From assembly GCF_006715635.1 (NCBI RefSeq), contig NZ_VFNP01000001.1, forward strand, positions 1,984,001 through 2,048,000: DNA of 64,000 bases. The letters are read 5' to 3'. The position numbers and the translations under genes were made by a program. This document shows, one piece after another, positions 47,589 through 62,114 of this stretch; position 1 is the stretch's first letter; each line of letters opens with the position of its first letter. The DNA is from Streptomyces sp. SLBN-118 (GTDB taxonomy: Bacteria; Actinomycetota; Actinomycetes; Streptomycetales; Streptomycetaceae). Under the pieces are notes generated by a model, which was not told where the DNA came from, did no database searches, and was given only the letters and a program-made list of their open reading frames with translations.

Positions 47589-48527
47589 TCAGGCTGTGAC
47601 CGCTCGTTCGACCAACGTCAGCGCCAGGTGCGGAAGTTCCGCCCGGTCATCGGCGGCGCCGCTCAGCCAGTGCACTCGCGGGTCCCGGCGGAACCAGGAG
47701 TCCTGGCGGCGCGCGAAGCGCTTTGTTGCGCGCACGGTCTCCTCACGCGCCTGACCGTCGGTGCACTCCCCCGCGAGCGCCGTGAGCACCTGCTGGTAGC
47801 CGAGCGCGCGCGACGCTGTGCGCCCCTCCCGCAGACCCTGAGCCTCCAGCGCGCGCACCTCCTCGACGAGGCCCGCCTCCCACATCCGGTCGACGCGCAG
47901 CGCGATGCGCTCGTCGAGCTCGGGGCGGGCCACATCGACGCCGATCTGAACGGTGTCGTAGACGGCGTCGTGTCCGGGAAGGTTGGCGGTGAAGGGCTTG
48001 CCGGTGATCTCGATGACTTCGAGCGCCCGCACGATGCGGCGGCCGTTGCTCGGCAGGATCGCCTTTCCGGCCTCCGGATCGGCGGCGGCCAGCCGGGCGT
48101 GCAGGGCGCCCGGGCCGCGCACCGTCAGCTCCTCTTCCAGCCGGGCACGGATCACCGGGTCGGTGCCGGGGAATTCGAGGGCGTCGATGGCGCCGCGTAC
48201 GTACAGCCCGGAGCCGCCGACGAGGACGGGCGTACGGCCTTCGGCCAGCAGCCGGTCGATCTCCGCCCTGGCCAGTTTCTGGTACTCGGCGACGCTCGCT
48301 GTCTCGGTGACGTCCCAGATGTCCAACAACCGGTGCGGGACACCGCCGCGCTCCTCGGCCGTCAGTTTGGCGGTGCCGATATCCATCCCCCGGTAGAGCT
48401 GCATGGAGTCGGCGTTGACGACTTCGCCGCCCAGTCGCTGGGCGAGGAAGACGCCCAGATCGGACTTTCCGGCCGCGGTGGGACCGACGACGGCGATGAC
48501 CCGCGGCGCGGGAGCTGCACTTCTCAC
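47589..48527 (-). CDS. miaA: tRNA dimethylallyltransferase
   Basis: 312 residues from GTG at 48527, chosen by protein homology (VGPTAAGKSDLGV P-loop at 12-22); the reading frame is open to 48764. DSMQLYRGMDIGTAK and GGSGLYVRGAID are family hallmarks. It adds the isopentenyl group to A37 of tRNAs reading UNN codons, including the bldA tRNA that decodes TTA and controls Streptomyces development. miaB, which completes ms2i6A, lies 1.7 kb away. Confidence 0.95.
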   Translation of the reverse strand: MRSAAPAPRVIAVVGPTAAGKSDLGVFLAQRLGGEVVNADSMQLYRGMDIGTAKLTAEERGGVPHRLLDIWDVTETASVAEYQKLARAEIDRLLAEGRTPVLVGGSGLYVRGAIDALEFPGTDPVIRARLEEELTVRGPGALHARLAAADPEAGKAILPSNGRRIVRALEVIEITGKPFTANLPGHDAVYDTVQIGVDVARPELDERIALRVDRMWEAGLVEEVRALEAQGLREGRTASRALGYQQVLTALAGECTDGQAREETVRATKRFARRQDSWFRRDPRVHWLSGAADDRAELPHLALTLVERAVTA

Positions 48528-48709
48528 TGCCCCAGTCTCGCAAACCCGCGGGCATGTCCCCGAACGAGCGAGGTGACGGCACGGGACAAGGTTCGTTGCC
48601 TGTTGCGAGGTTCCGATCGCCGGTTTCCCGACCGGTGCCCGCGAGCGACGCAATGGAACGCTCCGGGCGGCAAGGAACTTCGCCCACACGAGTAGCCTAT
48701 GGAGTAGAT

Positions 48710-49039
48710 ATGGGTGTTTTTTCACGATTTCGTCGCAAGTCCAGCACGACTGTCGAGGCGTCAACCGAAGAGTCGACCGCCGGAACGCTGACGGCCGAAT
48801 CCTCGATCGCGAGCGGTTGCGACGCCGGCAGCGAGACGTCGGGTAACGACAACGTTCCCGAGTCGGGCCCCGAGTCGGGTCCGGAAGTGGAAGCAGCGAA
48901 GGACGCGGCGGCGGAGGTCACCGAAGCTGGGGAGGCGACGGTCGCCGATGCCCCGGTCGCCGAGAGCGTGGAGATCCCCAAGCAGCAGTCGGCCGACGAG
49001 GCGGCGGACAACGAAGCCGACGAGGGCGCCCGCAAATAG
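48710..49039 (+). CDS. Small acidic hypothetical protein
   Basis: 109 residues from ATG at 48710 (GGAGTAGAT upstream). It starts with a basic MGVFSRFRRKSS and continues as an acidic Glu/Ala/Ser/Val-rich, probably unfolded chain (PESGPESGPEVEAAKDAAA). It stops 31 bp before the antitoxin-like gene, same strand, so the two are likely co-transcribed. I recognise no family. Confidence 0.7.
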   Translation: MGVFSRFRRKSSTTVEASTEESTAGTLTAESSIASGCDAGSETSGNDNVPESGPESGPEVEAAKDAAAEVTEAGEATVADAPVAESVEIPKQQSADEAADNEADEGARK

Positions 49040-50183: not shown

Positions 50184-51674
50184 TCAGTCGCAGCCGCACC
50201 CCGGCGCCGCGGCGGCCGGCAGCGGCTCAGGAACGCCGATCCTCGGCAGGCCCAGCATCACTCCGGCGGGCTTCACAGCAGCCTCGGCGTTGCGCTTCTC
50301 CCAGGCGTCGCCCGCGCGGGTGCGCCGTACGGATGTCACAGCGCCCTCCGCAAGCAGGTGGTGCGGTGCCGCGTACGTGATCTCGACCGTCACCACATCG
50401 CCGGGGCGCACGTCCTGGTCCGGCTTCGCGAAGTGAACGAGCCGGTTGTCGGGCGCACGCCCGGAAAGACGGTGTGTGGCCCCGTCCTTGCGGCCCTCGC
50501 CCTCAGCGACCATCACCTCGAGGGTCCGGCCGACCTGCTTCTTGTTCTCGTCCCAGGAGATCTCCTCCTGGAGAGCGACCAGGCGCATGTACCGGTCCTG
50601 GACGACCTCCTTGGGGATCTGCCCCTCCATGGTCGCCGCGGGGGTGCCGGGGCGCTTGGAGTACTGGAAGGTGAAGGCGTTCGCGAAGCGCGCCTGCCGC
50701 ACGGTGTGCATGGTCTGCTCGAAGTCCTCCTCGGTCTCGCCGGGGAAGCCCACGATGATGTCCGTGGAGATGGCGGCGTGCGGAATCGCGGCGCGCACGT
50801 TCTCGATGATGCCGAGGAACCGCTCCTGCCGGTACGAGCGGCGCATGGCCTTGAGCACCGTGTCCGAGCCGGACTGGAGCGGCATATGGAGCTGCGGCAT
50901 CACGTTCGGCGTCTCGGCCATCGCGGCGATCACATCGTCCGTGAAGTCGCGGGGGTGCGGGGAGGTGAAGCGGACCCGCTCCAGTCCCTCGATCTTTCCG
51001 CAGGCCCGCAGCAGCTTGCTGAAGGCCTCGCGGTCACCGATGTCGGAGCCGTACGCGTTGACGTTCTGTCCCAGCAGGGTGATCTCGCAGACGCCCTCGG
51101 CGACGAGCGCCTCCACCTCAGCCAGGATGTCGCCGGGCCTGCGGTCCTTCTCCTTGCCGCGCAGCGCGGGCACGATGCAGAAGGTGCAGGTGTTGTTGCA
51201 GCCGACCGAAATGGACACCCAGGCGGCATACGCCGACTCCCGGCGGGTCGGCAGCGTCGAGGGGAATGCCTCGAGCGACTCCGCGATCTCGACCTGTGCC
51301 TCTTCCTCGATGCGGGCGCGCTCCAGCAGGACCGGCAGCTTGCCGATGTTGTGCGTGCCGAAGACGACGTCGACCCAGGGCGCCTTCGTGACGATGGTGT
51401 CGCGGTCCTTCTGGGCCAGGCAGCCGCCGACGGCGATCTGCATCCCTGGCCGCTTGGTCTTCATCGGCGCGAGCCTGCCGAGATTGCCGTAGAGCTTGTT
51501 GTCGGCGTTCTCCCGCACCGCGCAGGTGTTGAAGACGACGACGTCGGCGTCGCCGTCGGCGCCCTCGGGCGCGCGGACATAGCCCGCCTCCTCCAGGAGG
51601 CCGGACAGGCGCTCGGAGTCGTGGACGTTCATCTGGCACCCGTAGGTGCGCACCTCGTAAGTTTTCGCACTCAT
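50184..51674 (-). CDS. miaB: tRNA-2-methylthio-N6-dimethylallyladenosine synthase
   Basis: 496 residues from ATG at 51674. The UPF0004 domain carries Cys in [15 protein letters not shown] and GGCLAQ, and the radical SAM domain holds [13 protein letters not shown] domain at about 380-450 is followed by a variable tail ending in GCGCD. It adds the methylthio group to i6A37 made by MiaA. Start assigned from homology ([13 protein letters not shown]); the open frame extends upstream without support. Confidence 0.95.
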
Positions 51675-51773
51675 CGCGCCAACCAGGGTACGGGGTCGCA
51701 CTGACGCCCCGCGTCTCCCGTCCGCGAGGAGGGGCCTGGCCATCACAGGGAGTGAACTGGCAGGATCGCGGCC

Positions 51774-52775
51774 ATGTTCCCCGCCCCCTCCCGCATCAGC
51801 CGCCGCCGCGCCCTGCAGGTGTCCGCGGCCGCCCTCGTGGTGTTCGGGCTGCTCGCGTGGTGGCTGCTGCCCATCGGGCAGACCTCCCCGAAGGGGAAGC
51901 TGACTTTCAGCACGGGCTCTCAGAACGGCGTCTACCAGCGGTACGGCGTGCTCTTGAAGGACGCACTCGCCCGCGATCTGCCGGATGTGTCGATAGACCT
52001 GCGCACCAGCGAGGGCTCGCAGCAGAACCTCGCGCGCGTGGCCACCGGCGAGGCCGACTTCACCATCGCCACGGCCGACGCGGTCGCCAAGTACAAACGG
52101 GACAGGAAGCCCGGCGCCGACCGGCTGCGCGGCTGTGCCCGGCTGTACGACGACTACGTTCAGCTGGTCGTCCCGCGCGGTTCCCAGGTGCAGTCGGTGC
52201 GTGACCTGCGCGGCAAGCGGGTGGCCATCGGGCAGGCGGGCTCCGGTGTGCGGCTGATCGCCGAGCGGCTGCTGACGGCCGCCGGCATCGACCCGAAGAA
52301 GGACATCACCCCGCTCCCGGCCGGGATCGACACCGTCCTCGGGCGCCTGGAGGCGCACGAGCTGGACGCCTTCTTCTGGTCGGGGGGACTGCCCACGGCT
52401 GCCGTCGAGGCGTTGTCCGAGCGCTTCCAGATCCAATTGGTGCCACTGGACGCCGCGCTCGTCGAGAAGCTGCACTCCACCAGCAGCGACACAACGAGCT
52501 ACTACCGCGCGGCCGTGATGCCCGCCGACGCCTATCTGGAAGCCCAGGGCGGACTGCCGGTACCGACGGTGGCAGTGGCGAATCTGCTGGTCACGACCGA
52601 CCGGATCGACCCGGCGATGGCGGAGGGCTTCACCCGCACGGTGATCAAGAGCCGGGACCGGATCGGAAACACCGTGCACCCGGCGCAGCTGGTGGATCTG
52701 CGGACCGCCGTCTACACCGATCCGCTGCCCCTGCACGAAGGAGCCCGGCGCTACTACCGCTCGGTCAAGCCGTAG
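51774..52775 (+). CDS. TAXI-family extracytoplasmic binding protein
   Basis: 333 residues with an N-terminal membrane anchor (about 15-35) preceded by SRRRALQ, which resembles a Tat signal. Periplasmic-binding folds: [16 protein letters not shown] (TAXI family signature), [14 protein letters not shown], and [20 protein letters not shown] proteins usually serve TRAP transporters, but no TRAP membrane genes are near. It is convergent with gluK with an 11-bp overlap. A Thermus TAXI protein binds glutamate or glutamine, so this might be a glutamate sensor linked to the neighbouring GluK. Confidence 0.88.
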
Positions 52776-59394: not shown

Positions 59395-60990
59395 GTGGAC
59401 CCGGTGATCATCGTCGGCGCCGGGCCCGTCGGGCTCGCGCTCGCGCTGGCGCTGGCGCAGCAGGACGTGCCCTCCGTCGTACTCGACGAAGGCGCAGGCA
59501 AGGACGAGCCGCGGCCCGCTCGCACCGTTGTGCTGCGCTCCGACACTGCGGCGATGGTGGAACGGCTCGGCTGCACCACCGTCCGTGACGAAGGAGCCCG
59601 CTGGACCGGCTGGCGCTCGATGCGCCGGCGCCAGGACGTACGGCAGCTCCCTCTCGGCGACGAGGCCGCCCCCGCGCCGCTGCACATCCCCCAGCACGCC
59701 CTTGCGCGCGGCCTGCGGGACGCCGCCGCCGGACAGAAACTCATCCGGGTCGCCACAGGAAGTCGCGTCGACTCGCTGGAGCAGGACGCGAGCGGCGTCA
59801 GCGTGCACACCCGTGGGCCCGCGGCGACATGGTGGCGCGGAAGCCACCTGGTCGGGTGCGACGGTGCGAGGTCGACGGTCCGCAAGCTCCTCGGCATCCG
59901 CTTTCCCGGGCGTACGGCCGTGGAACGGCATGCGGTCGCCGCCCTGCGCACCGAACTCCCCTGGCCCAACGAGGCGTTGCTACACCGTCAGCCGCCGTGG
60001 CGCACAGGCGGCGAGGAGGTCACCGCCCGGCCGCTGCGGGACAGCGTATGGCGGCTGGACTGGCTGCTGGCGCCCCGCGGCGAACTGGTCACGCCCGACT
60101 CCCTGGTGGCGCGCCTGCGCGACACCTTGGCGGGCTGGTGCGATCAGGCACCGGCGTACGAACTCCTCGACACCGGCGTCTACACCCTCCACCACCGGCT
60201 CGCGCGGCGCTGGCGGGTCGACCGGGCCTTCCTCGCGGGCGACGCGGCGCATCTGCTGGGGGCGCTCGGCACGCAGGGGCTCGACGAAGGGCTGCGGGAC
60301 GCGGACAACCTGGCCTGGAAGCTGGCGCACTGCTGGCACCACGGCCCGTCCGAGCCGCTGCTCGACAGTTATCAGGCGGAGCGGCGGACGGCTGTGGCCT
60401 CGCGGCTGCGCGCCGCCGACCAGTCGCTGCCGATACTCCGCAGCAGCGGCGCGCTGCGTACGTACCTCCCGGGTGCCGCGCGCGGGCACGACATCCTGCT
60501 TGCTGACGGCCATCTGGGGTACGGCCCGCTGGGCGCGCCCCCCGTATACACGCACTCCCCCCTGGCGCCCGAACGCGCTCCTTCGCAGACCCTCGTCGGT
60601 ACGGAGGCGGGCGCGCCCGTCGCGGATGTGCGGGTAACCGTGCCGGACGGGACGAGCGCGCGGCTGCGCGACCGGCTGGGGCAGGGGCAGCTGGTGGTGA
60701 TTCTCGTCGCACCCGGAACGGGAGTGTGGGACCGGCGGCACTGGGTGAGCGCGGGCGTGATGCCGCGACTGGCCGCGGCGGTCAGTGCGCTGCCGGTGCG
60801 GGCGGAGCTGCTGGTCACGGAGGGCTACCCAGGGGCTTCGGCCCACACAGTGCTGCTGGTGCGGCCCGACGGGCACCTGGTCGCGTCGTTCGCGGGCGTG
60901 CGGCCCGCCGAGCTGTACTCAGCGGCGGACACGGCGCGCGGTGGCGCCCCCTCAACGGTGCGCAGTGACCGTACTGCGGACATCAATTGA
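59395..60990 (+). CDS. FAD-dependent aromatic monooxygenase (PheA/TfdB type)
   Basis: 531 residues from GTG (GAAGGAGTCACGCC upstream). The dinucleotide-binding motif GAGPVGLALALALAQ is at 8-22. The FAD/NADPH motif DG in LVGCDGARSTVRKLLG and the GD motif FLAGDAAHLLGALGTQGLDEG (in part) place it among class A flavoprotein hydroxylases, related to rifampin monooxygenase-type enzymes. The C-terminal thioredoxin-like domain (LVVILVAPG) is present. Substrate unknown. A 5' broken duplicate lies just upstream. Confidence 0.88.
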   Translation: MDPVIIVGAGPVGLALALALAQQDVPSVVLDEGAGKDEPRPARTVVLRSDTAAMVERLGCTTVRDEGARWTGWRSMRRRQDVRQLPLGDEAAPAPLHIPQHALARGLRDAAAGQKLIRVATGSRVDSLEQDASGVSVHTRGPAATWWRGSHLVGCDGARSTVRKLLGIRFPGRTAVERHAVAALRTELPWPNEALLHRQPPWRTGGEEVTARPLRDSVWRLDWLLAPRGELVTPDSLVARLRDTLAGWCDQAPAYELLDTGVYTLHHRLARRWRVDRAFLAGDAAHLLGALGTQGLDEGLRDADNLAWKLAHCWHHGPSEPLLDSYQAERRTAVASRLRAADQSLPILRSSGALRTYLPGAARGHDILLADGHLGYGPLGAPPVYTHSPLAPERAPSQTLVGTEAGAPVADVRVTVPDGTSARLRDRLGQGQLVVILVAPGTGVWDRRHWVSAGVMPRLAAAVSALPVRAELLVTEGYPGASAHTVLLVRPDGHLVASFAGVRPAELYSAADTARGGAPSTVRSDRTADIN

Positions 60991-61015
60991 CCGTCGAACG
61001 CGCACATGGTGTACT
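60987..61015 (+). promoter_or_regulatory. Promoter of the cysteine leader peptide/dioxygenase operon
   Basis: TTGACC (60987-60992), 17 bases, TGTACT (61010-61015). The expected start of transcription is at about 61022, so the GTG at 61023 would be leaderless. It overlaps the end of the monooxygenase gene. Confidence 0.65.
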
Positions 61016-61022
61016 CCGGAGC

Positions 61023-61109
61023 GTGACTGACACCGATGTGCGCCTGTGGCGGAGGGTCCATATGGACCTCGTCCGCTACGCGGGCTGCGTGTGTCGTCCG
61101 TCCTGCTGA
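61023..61109 (+). CDS. Cysteine-containing leader peptide
   Basis: 28 codons from GTG at 61023, or 23 from the in-frame GTG at 61038. The reading is VRLWRRVHMDLVRYAG then CVCRPSC and stop: three of the last seven residues are Cys. Short peptides of this kind (RLWRRVHMDLVRYAGCVCRP) are annotated as putative leader peptides in Streptomyces upstream of sulfur genes. It ends 70 bp before cysteine dioxygenase. Its role in regulation by cysteine is inference from Cys codons near the stop and the promoter. A conventional ribosome site is not visible for either start. Confidence 0.75.
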   Translation: MTDTDVRLWRRVHMDLVRYAGCVCRPSC

Positions 61110-61179
61110 ATTCGCTTTTCCCGCGCGCTGTGACCCGCTGAGCCGGCGCGCTTTCCCGCGAACCTCCAGGACGGTTTCC

Positions 61180-61731
61180 GTGTCCCAGTCTGTCTCCGCT
61201 CCTTTTGACTCCCCACCGGTCGCCACCCGTGACTCGAGCGCGCCGACGGCCGCTGAGCTGCTCGATTTTGTACGGCGCTCCGCCGCCGACCAAGAGCTCA
61301 TCGCCTCGCTCCCCCTCGACCCGGAAGGGCGTACCTGGGTACGGCTCGAAGGCCCGGGGGGCAGCGAGGCCTGGCTGATCGGCTGGCCCCCGGGCACGGG
61401 TACCGGATGGCACGACCATGCCGAGTCGCACGGCGCGTTCGCCACGGCCGCCGGCGAACTGAAGGAGAACTCCCTCGCCGTACGCCTGCCCGCGAGCGGC
61501 TGGAGGACTCTGGAGCTGGACGAAGGGGTTGACCGCGAAAGGCAGTTGGGGCCGGGCGGCGGCCGGGCCTTCGGGCAGCACCATGTGCACGAGGTGCTGA
61601 ACGAGTCGGTCACCGAACACGCCGTCTCGGTGCATGCGTACTACCCGCCGCTGCCGCTGATCCGCCGCTTCAGCCGGTCCGGTGCGGTGCTCCGCCTTGA
61701 GCAGGTCGAGCGTCCGGAGGACTGGCAGTGA
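61180..61731 (+). CDS. Cysteine dioxygenase
   Basis: 183 residues from GTG at 61180 (CCAGGACGGTTTCC upstream). The cupin fold shows iron ligands in GTGWHDHAESHG (two His) and the third His in HHVHEVLNE; the substrate pocket Tyr is in SVHAYYPPLP. It oxidises cysteine to cysteine sulfinate. Its stop overlaps the rhodanese start (GTGA). Regulation by the leader peptide upstream is likely. Confidence 0.9.
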   Translation: MSQSVSAPFDSPPVATRDSSAPTAAELLDFVRRSAADQELIASLPLDPEGRTWVRLEGPGGSEAWLIGWPPGTGTGWHDHAESHGAFATAAGELKENSLAVRLPASGWRTLELDEGVDRERQLGPGGGRAFGQHHVHEVLNESVTEHAVSVHAYYPPLPLIRRFSRSGAVLRLEQVERPEDWQ

Positions 61732-62114
61732 GCGAGCGGACAGGAATCGACGAACTTCTGGAACGGATCCGCGAGGATCTCGACCGCGTCGAGCCGAAGG
61801 AGGCTCATGCGGCGGCCGCGGACGGCGCGCTCCTGGTGGACATCCGGTACGCGGCCCTGCGCGAGCGGGACGGCCTGATCCCCGGTGCGCTGGTCGTGGA
61901 ACGCAATGAGCTGGAGTGGCGCCTTGACCCCCGGGGCAGCCACCGCGCACCGGAGGCGGTGAGCCACGATCTGCGGGTCGTCGTGATCTGCAACGAGGGC
62001 TATGCCTCGTCTCTGGCGGCAGCGTCCTTGCGCCAGTTGGGCCTGCACCGCGCGACGGATCTGATCGGCGGTTTCCAGGCATGGAAGTCGGCCGGCCTCC
62101 CGGTGGAACAGTGA
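61728..62114 (+). CDS. Rhodanese-like sulfurtransferase
   Basis: 128 residues from GTG, overlapping the dioxygenase stop. The rhodanese fold has LLVDIRYAALRERDGLIPGAL (in part) and the active-site Cys in VVICNEGYASSLAAA, followed by GGFQAWKSAGLPVE. The catalytic loop is CNEGYAS. It probably handles sulfane sulfur in the same pathway as the coupled cysteine dioxygenase. Confidence 0.92.
   Translation: MSERTGIDELLERIREDLDRVEPKEAHAAAADGALLVDIRYAALRERDGLIPGALVVERNELEWRLDPRGSHRAPEAVSHDLRVVVICNEGYASSLAAASLRQLGLHRATDLIGGFQAWKSAGLPVEQ

Follow-up and report, generated by a model that had tools for sequence, protein, structure and literature searches.

The cysteine-rich leaders of mycobacteria are among the described systems close to the locus presented here. 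Polycysteine leaderless short open reading frames (ORFs) are said to have been described in Mycobacterium smegmatis by Canestrari in 2020, reportedly together with a predicted sequestration of the Shine–Dalgarno (SD) sequence, a prediction shared with the leader analysed here. Like them, the present leader is a short and probably leaderless ORF with Cys codons near its end and a sulfur gene downstream, but its Cys residues are not contiguous (C-V-C-R-P-S-C) and the downstream gene is catabolic. According to PMC9031893, mycobacterial leaders whose Cys codons are contiguous act by translational attenuation; polycysteine leaders are also treated in PMC9094748. Against the NCBIfam model of one of these Cys-rich leaders, Ms5788A (NF042933), the present leader reaches 18.3 bits where the cut-off is 45, the two being only weakly similar in the C-terminal half.

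Two further systems invite comparison. TnaC is likewise a conserved leader peptide placed before an amino-acid-degrading enzyme; the present leader differs in that it gives no sign of free amino acid sensing and carries a fixed synonymous codon instead. The uORFC-8-2 motif upstream of cysS in Rhodobacterales is also a predicted Cys-codon attenuator but, as described in PMC8632094, UGC dominates and an intrinsic terminator is modelled, whereas here UGU is fixed and such a terminator was not found in the leader region.

As judged by profile search, the leader peptide is a member of an already catalogued family, the ‘putative leader peptide’ cis_reg_atten model NF042934 of NCBIfam (37.1 bits for a curated cut-off of 27, E = 1.7e-9). 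Its motif does not differ from that of the family; what sets it apart is its position before a Cys-degrading enzyme, and no description of a leader of this kind ahead of a cysteine dioxygenase (CDO) was found in the open-licence papers searched.

The leader and its genomic setting

The leader lies in the window, i.e. the whole 64 000-nucleotide stretch of Streptomyces sp. SLBN-118 DNA that was analysed, and all features are on its forward strand unless otherwise indicated. The preliminary description had proposed a 28-codon frame ending in CVCRPSC, and this frame is borne out: read from its GTG, 61023–61109 translates to the 28 residues VTDTDVRLWRRVHMDLVRYAGCVCRPSC, followed by a stop, exceeds the cut-off of the family model, and is conserved upstream of CDO in Streptomyces and sister genera. 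The NF042934 motif spans 19 residues and ends at the second Cys (codon 24, family position 19), hereafter the focal Cys. In keeping with the family definition, the short ORF is immediately followed by a gene in the same orientation: 70 nt separate it from the GTG of a type I CDO gene (61180–61731; PF05995, 167 bits), whose stop is overlapped by a rhodanese-like sulfurtransferase gene (61728–62114; PF00581, 51.5 bits). A terminator scan of the leader region recognised no intrinsic (U-run) terminator, and a search of Rfam over 60800–61400 returned only IRE_II, on the other strand and below its gathering score, which was treated as chance.

The promoter-like layout is exactly as first claimed, with TTGACC (60987–60992), 17 nt, TGTACT (61010–61015), 7 nt and the GTG. 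A script seeking T[GC]TA[CA]T and TTGA was applied to 81 loci, namely the window and the best 80 of 434 named loci, and both elements were retrieved in all of them, with a spacer of 17 nt in 71 loci and of 18 nt in 10. The distance from the −10-like element to the leader start was 7 nt in 78 of these 81 loci (in L032 the start picked by the script is out of frame), and no SD-like string precedes the leader start in any of them; a stricter pattern of the same layout matched 18 of 21 loci from a sample of the class. A generic promoter scan recognised nothing at the leader, owing to a −10 element whose second base is not the customary A. Judging from this spacing, the leader mRNA is probably leaderless, with its 5′ end at or beside the GTG.

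The leader is present upstream of CDO in all of the best 80 of 434 named Streptomyces loci, a sample that consequently favours orthologues. Motif and focal Cys are kept in 79 of these; in the remaining one (L035), the leader is broken after the first Cys, the frame continuing past CV with loss of the focal TGT. In L058, the stop comes a codon sooner and the third Cys is missing. The class sample contains 28 genomes of the genus; 22 of them, counting that of the window, have a CDO orthologue (E below 1e-83), and a leader was retrieved at 21 of 22 CDO loci besides the window, the exception (L111) being a CDO fragment. Among sister genera, 59 genomes gave a CDO match, and 34 of the 40 loci examined carried the leader; the pattern search for it had no match in L242, L250, L251, L252, L253 and L255.

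The family itself is widespread in the class. NF042934 matches occur in 199 of 296 class-sample genomes (177 over the cut-off) and in none of 14 control genomes; with E relaxed to 1, six control genomes display matches, none over the cut-off. In the present genome, four other leaders over the cut-off precede genes that from their translations read as cysO/cysM-like, sulfite/nitrite reductase, thiosulfate sulfurtransferase and flavin reductase-like.

Predicted pairing of the leader end with the CDO Shine–Dalgarno region

In the minimum free energy (MFE) structure of 61092–61190, the last leader codons CCGUCCUG (61098–61105) pair with CAGGACGG (61167–61174), the SD region of CDO. Inside this helix, UUCGC (61111–61115) pairs with GCGAA (61158–61162), with 89.5% of cells paired, and a G+C-rich hairpin (61123–61151) forms the tip. 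The same SD-sequestering helix is predicted in the longer fold of 61023–61200, with a z-score of −3.0 as against −1.8 for the shorter fragment. In silico, the leader is thereby followed by a structure that hides the ribosome-binding site of the next gene.

This arrangement is conserved. The GGACGG of the SD region is found downstream of the leader in all 80 loci used (the window and the best 80 of 434, L035 left out), and the CDO start codon follows its first G by 11–12 nt. Both complementary arms persist in these 80 loci, even though the spacer between them spans 54–159 nt and aligns poorly. Arm cells are paired in 93.4% of cases, versus at most 46.0% when the arms are slid, and arms of at least 8 bp (G-U allowed) are possible in 68 of the 80 real loci versus 3.8% of shuffled arms. 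In 77 of 80 loci, three or all four bases of the SD core pair with the leader tail; the MFE structures of L036, L039 and L077 are free from SD–leader pairing. When the leader arm is covered, the mean probability that the SD core is unpaired increases from 0.02 in free RNA to 0.20; it is higher in 78 of 80 loci, with no gain in the other two, and the mean reaches only this 0.20.

Evidence from covariation is thinner, because both arms are nearly invariant. Once seven sister-genus loci, picked for carrying the SD motif, were added to the 80 (87 loci, L035 left out), 671 of 696 arm cells were paired, for a mean of 668.3 when SD arms were shuffled, and this value was reached in 8 of 5000 shuffles. 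A double change from U-A to C-G in three g126 loci and U-G pairs in two g129 loci both support the helix. Within Streptomyces, no covariation excess was detected: a single cell shows a change in both partners, a number that does not exceed that of the shuffles. The helix was seen only in Streptomyces and four near genera; by eye, it is absent from g116 loci and from those of the sister genus g120, the latter still keeping UGU.

The CDO leaders of g120 (within L218–L239) mostly end in CVCTAAR and, in several of them, a CGTTCAC farther downstream appears by eye to be the complement of the GTGAACG leader start.

An anti-SD rule for the whole NF042934 family was considered and rejected. Once 11 of 85 loci devoid of a recognisable downstream start are set aside, the SD pairs with the leader tail in only 18 of 74 leaders, and the longest tail–SD complement averages 5.04, versus 4.92 for shuffled tails. 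A subset (L147, L159, L203, L204, L207, L209 and L211) does exhibit an anti-SD arm of 6–11 bp. Four of these, L147, L203, L207 and L211, are leaders of another branch, and the genes read downstream of them are presumably DUF4395-like membrane genes.

We consider it probable, on the strength of sequence conservation and modelled folds, that the leaderless leader peptide acts as a ribosome-mediated, Cys-responsive translational attenuator of CDO. The mRNA would begin at the GTG or next to it, and its 28 leader codons would be translated by a 70S ribosome. With Cys-tRNA plentiful, the ribosome would pass the UGU and leave at the UGA, and the freed leader end would pair with the SD region, so that CDO and the overlapping rhodanese gene would be poorly translated. 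With Cys-tRNA in short supply, it would instead wait with UGU in its A site while its front edge covered the anti-SD arm, leaving the SD open and CDO made. The front edge of a ribosome lies about 12–13 nt ahead, and the anti-SD arm starts 6 nt downstream of the U that opens the UGU codon. The leader, the promoter-like layout, the fixed UGU and the complementary arms are seen in the sequences and their conservation, and the fold is predicted; the stall itself, its direction and cysteine as the signal are what we infer.

If a stall in the leader frees the SD, cysteine shortage should turn CDO on. Such an induction is unexpected because CDO degrades cysteine: were its role purely catabolic, an attenuator that responds to starvation would act in the direction opposite to the one anticipated. 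A Cys-degrading enzyme under an apparent cysteine-shortage switch thus questions the role of CDO and its rhodanese partner in Streptomyces. In Streptomyces coelicolor, the orthologue of the present CDO is, presumably, SCO5772 rather than SCO3035, which we take to be the second CDO of this species; the assignment probably holds by synteny with recX and recA. SCO5772 is named a ‘putative cysteine dioxygenase’ in PMC3087709. Under H2O2, it is up 8.0-fold in Table 1 of PMC4991794, in which cysI (9.3-fold), cysA (8.3-fold), cysM (8.5-fold), the ssu genes and SCO3035 (6.5-fold) also increase. The induction of SCO5772 alongside Cys-biosynthesis genes agrees with shortage turning CDO on. These changes are at the RNA level and, as the authors attribute them to SenR (PMC4991794), they support co-regulation and do not prove attenuation. 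In the available part of an NdgR study (PMC4340878), no SCO57xx gene was found.

The same stall could also be the switch of a different output, in which leader translation governs transcription instead, a closed SD leading to Rho-dependent polarity or to decay of the RNA. The RNA-level change of SCO5772 (PMC4991794) and the 70-nt untranslated gap after the leader would suit this possibility, which nevertheless appears unlikely, given that no intrinsic terminator was found and that the conserved helix closes exactly the SD.

Cysteine codons and the codon at family position 19

The earlier proposal had treated the three Cys codons together as an attenuator. The SD-sequestering helix does complete them into a ready attenuator, but the codons are not equivalent, and only the second is invariant. 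In 79 leaders (the window and the best 80 of 434 named loci, minus L035 and L058), the first Cys codon (codon 22, 61086–61088, TGC in the window) is TGC in 77 cases and TGT in two, whereas the focal one (codon 24, 61092–61094) is TGT in all 79. It is also TGT in the 21 CDO leaders of the class sample and in the 34 sister-genus leaders, eight of which have the focal Cys as their sole Cys. The third (codon 28, 61104–61106, TGC in the window) is variable, replaced by TTC in three and TCC in one of the 79 leaders, and also replaced in four of the 21 class-sample loci. Since it overlaps the anti-SD arm and is lost in these four leaders as well as in L058, this codon seems dispensable as a codon and better explained by base pairing; in the Phe-ending loci L024, L046 and L055, an 11-base pairing is possible in a shifted register.

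The preference extends to the family. In 86 aligned NF042934 leaders across the class, taken among the best-scoring matches listed, the window's own included, and related rather than independent, the Cys at position 19 is encoded by TGT in 85 and by TGC in one (L213). Four leaders shorter than the rest, with an off-centre match (L128, L139, L142 and L145), were omitted from this alignment, and L008, whose match ends at position 16, from the count of the focal codon. By contrast with position 19, TGC prevails at positions 12 (54 versus three TGT) and 17 (27 versus 10); at position 20, which lies in the poly-Cys runs, TGT predominates (12 versus five TGC). Taken together, leader Cys other than that of position 19 amount to 45 TGT versus 135 TGC, and Cys codons of the downstream genes to 20 TGT versus 253 TGC. 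In the window, TGT represents 23 of 106 Cys codons in 24 large ORFs, a rough figure in which stop-to-stop flanks are counted as well. Because the neighbouring codons vary, TGT at position 19 seems to reflect a rule on the codon itself and not a longer motif. No report of such a rule was found in the open-licence papers searched, which did not include the original mycobacterial leader study.

This near-invariance bears on what the ribosome would sense. In a TnaC-like arrest peptide, the nascent chain RRVHMDLVRYAGCVC would stall the ribosome in the presence of excess free cysteine or a related thiol, thereby opening the CDO SD. Such a device would suit a catabolic downstream gene, and the peptide is indeed strongly conserved beyond its Cys codons, with a motif common to the NF042934 family. 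It is rather improbable all the same: a near-fixed synonymous codon would be unexpected if the amino acid alone mattered, the same motif precedes Cys-biosynthesis genes, and SCO5772 rises along with biosynthesis genes (PMC4991794). With TGT in 85 of 86 cases at position 19 and TGC in 54 of 57 at position 12, the codon pattern favours decoding, rather than the nascent peptide, as the signal of the attenuator. The near-invariant UGU makes this choice directly testable, as one synonymous change should weaken the response.

As to how UGU is read, two tRNA-Cys genes were identified in the genome, both with the anticodon GCA, among 66 matches to Rfam RF00005 then passed to ARAGORN (one match, L315, gave no ARAGORN gene); a hand-written tRNA-Cys pattern had produced no match. 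With this anticodon in both genes, UGU should be decoded by wobble. The second gene (L300, G000:C2:2953234-2953305) is divergent; a BLAST search of 41 genomes gave matches to it (E ≤ 0.001) in 23, of which 21 belong to the genus.

A family-wide version of the attenuator would have a single position-specific UGU, wobble-read by tRNA-Cys(GCA), as its sensor, at the place where the waiting ribosome just covers the regulatory arm; the upstream Cys codons would mostly be UGC so that ribosomes reach the UGU. We put this forward tentatively, as possible but doubtful. Much less likely still is its boldest form, in which decoding of UGU would in addition reflect whether base 37 of tRNA-Cys carries its sulfur-dependent modification. 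The products of miaA and miaB modify this base in tRNAs reading UNN codons, and, were the idea true, the leader would read sulfur status besides charging.

Genes named miaA-like and miaB-like from their translations lie on the reverse strand of the window (47589–48764 and 50184–52736), 8–13 kb from the leader.

Selection, the HP1 hairpin and overlapping frames

Over 1000 random pairs, the leader displays a pN of 0.026 and a pS of 0.16, versus 0.115 and 0.42 for the CDO gene; the lowest 21-codon window of CDO has a pS of 0.275 (150 pairs). Such ratios indicate that the leader peptide is under purifying selection and, both values being low relative to CDO, that peptide and nucleotides are constrained alike. 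Thus, the initial view of a Cys-related and probably leaderless leader ahead of CDO gains support from purifying selection, from the family model and from the SD-sequestering helix. The present analysis identified three sources of the nucleotide constraint, namely a hairpin in the coding region (HP1), the focal codon and the anti-SD arm.

HP1 (61045–61080) is predicted to fold within the leader coding region and includes the palindrome GGTCCATATGGACC (61055–61068). The share of its cells that are paired is 99.0% over 81 loci, as against 86.9% for 26 sister loci and 50.8% for eight others; over 54 distinct sequences, 92.5% are paired, versus a mean of 89.8% and a maximum of 91.5% for shuffles. 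According to the predicted folds, the leader RNA carries two conserved hairpins.

The palindrome could alternatively be a protein operator bound by a repressor, given that it is perfect over 14 bp and that synonymous sites are constrained. As the operator of a regulon it was rejected, with 39 forward matches in the genome (at most two mismatches) versus 48 for a control pattern, i.e. no enrichment. Moreover, the outer HP1 pair 6–33 changes on both sides (G-C in 35 and C-G in 13 of the 54 distinct sequences) and the central bases of the palindrome vary (CAC, CTG), which makes binding by a repressor very improbable. Finally, DNA as G+C-rich as this abounds in short ORFs (58 within 6 kb are 25 aa or longer), but a chance ORF has a negligible probability here, contradicted by the NF042934 match and by conservation, which confirm the leader as a real gene, far beyond chance.

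Other starts and frames overlap the leader. A longer form from an in-frame TTG at 60987 (60987–61109) overlaps the −35-like element. The frame of CDO, which differs from that of the leader, is already open at 61036 and runs through the leader (61036–61731); both starts misfit the conserved layout. Within the leader, inside HP1, a GGAGG stands six bases 5′ of an in-frame ATG (61051–61064), from which translation of a 15-residue form might begin.
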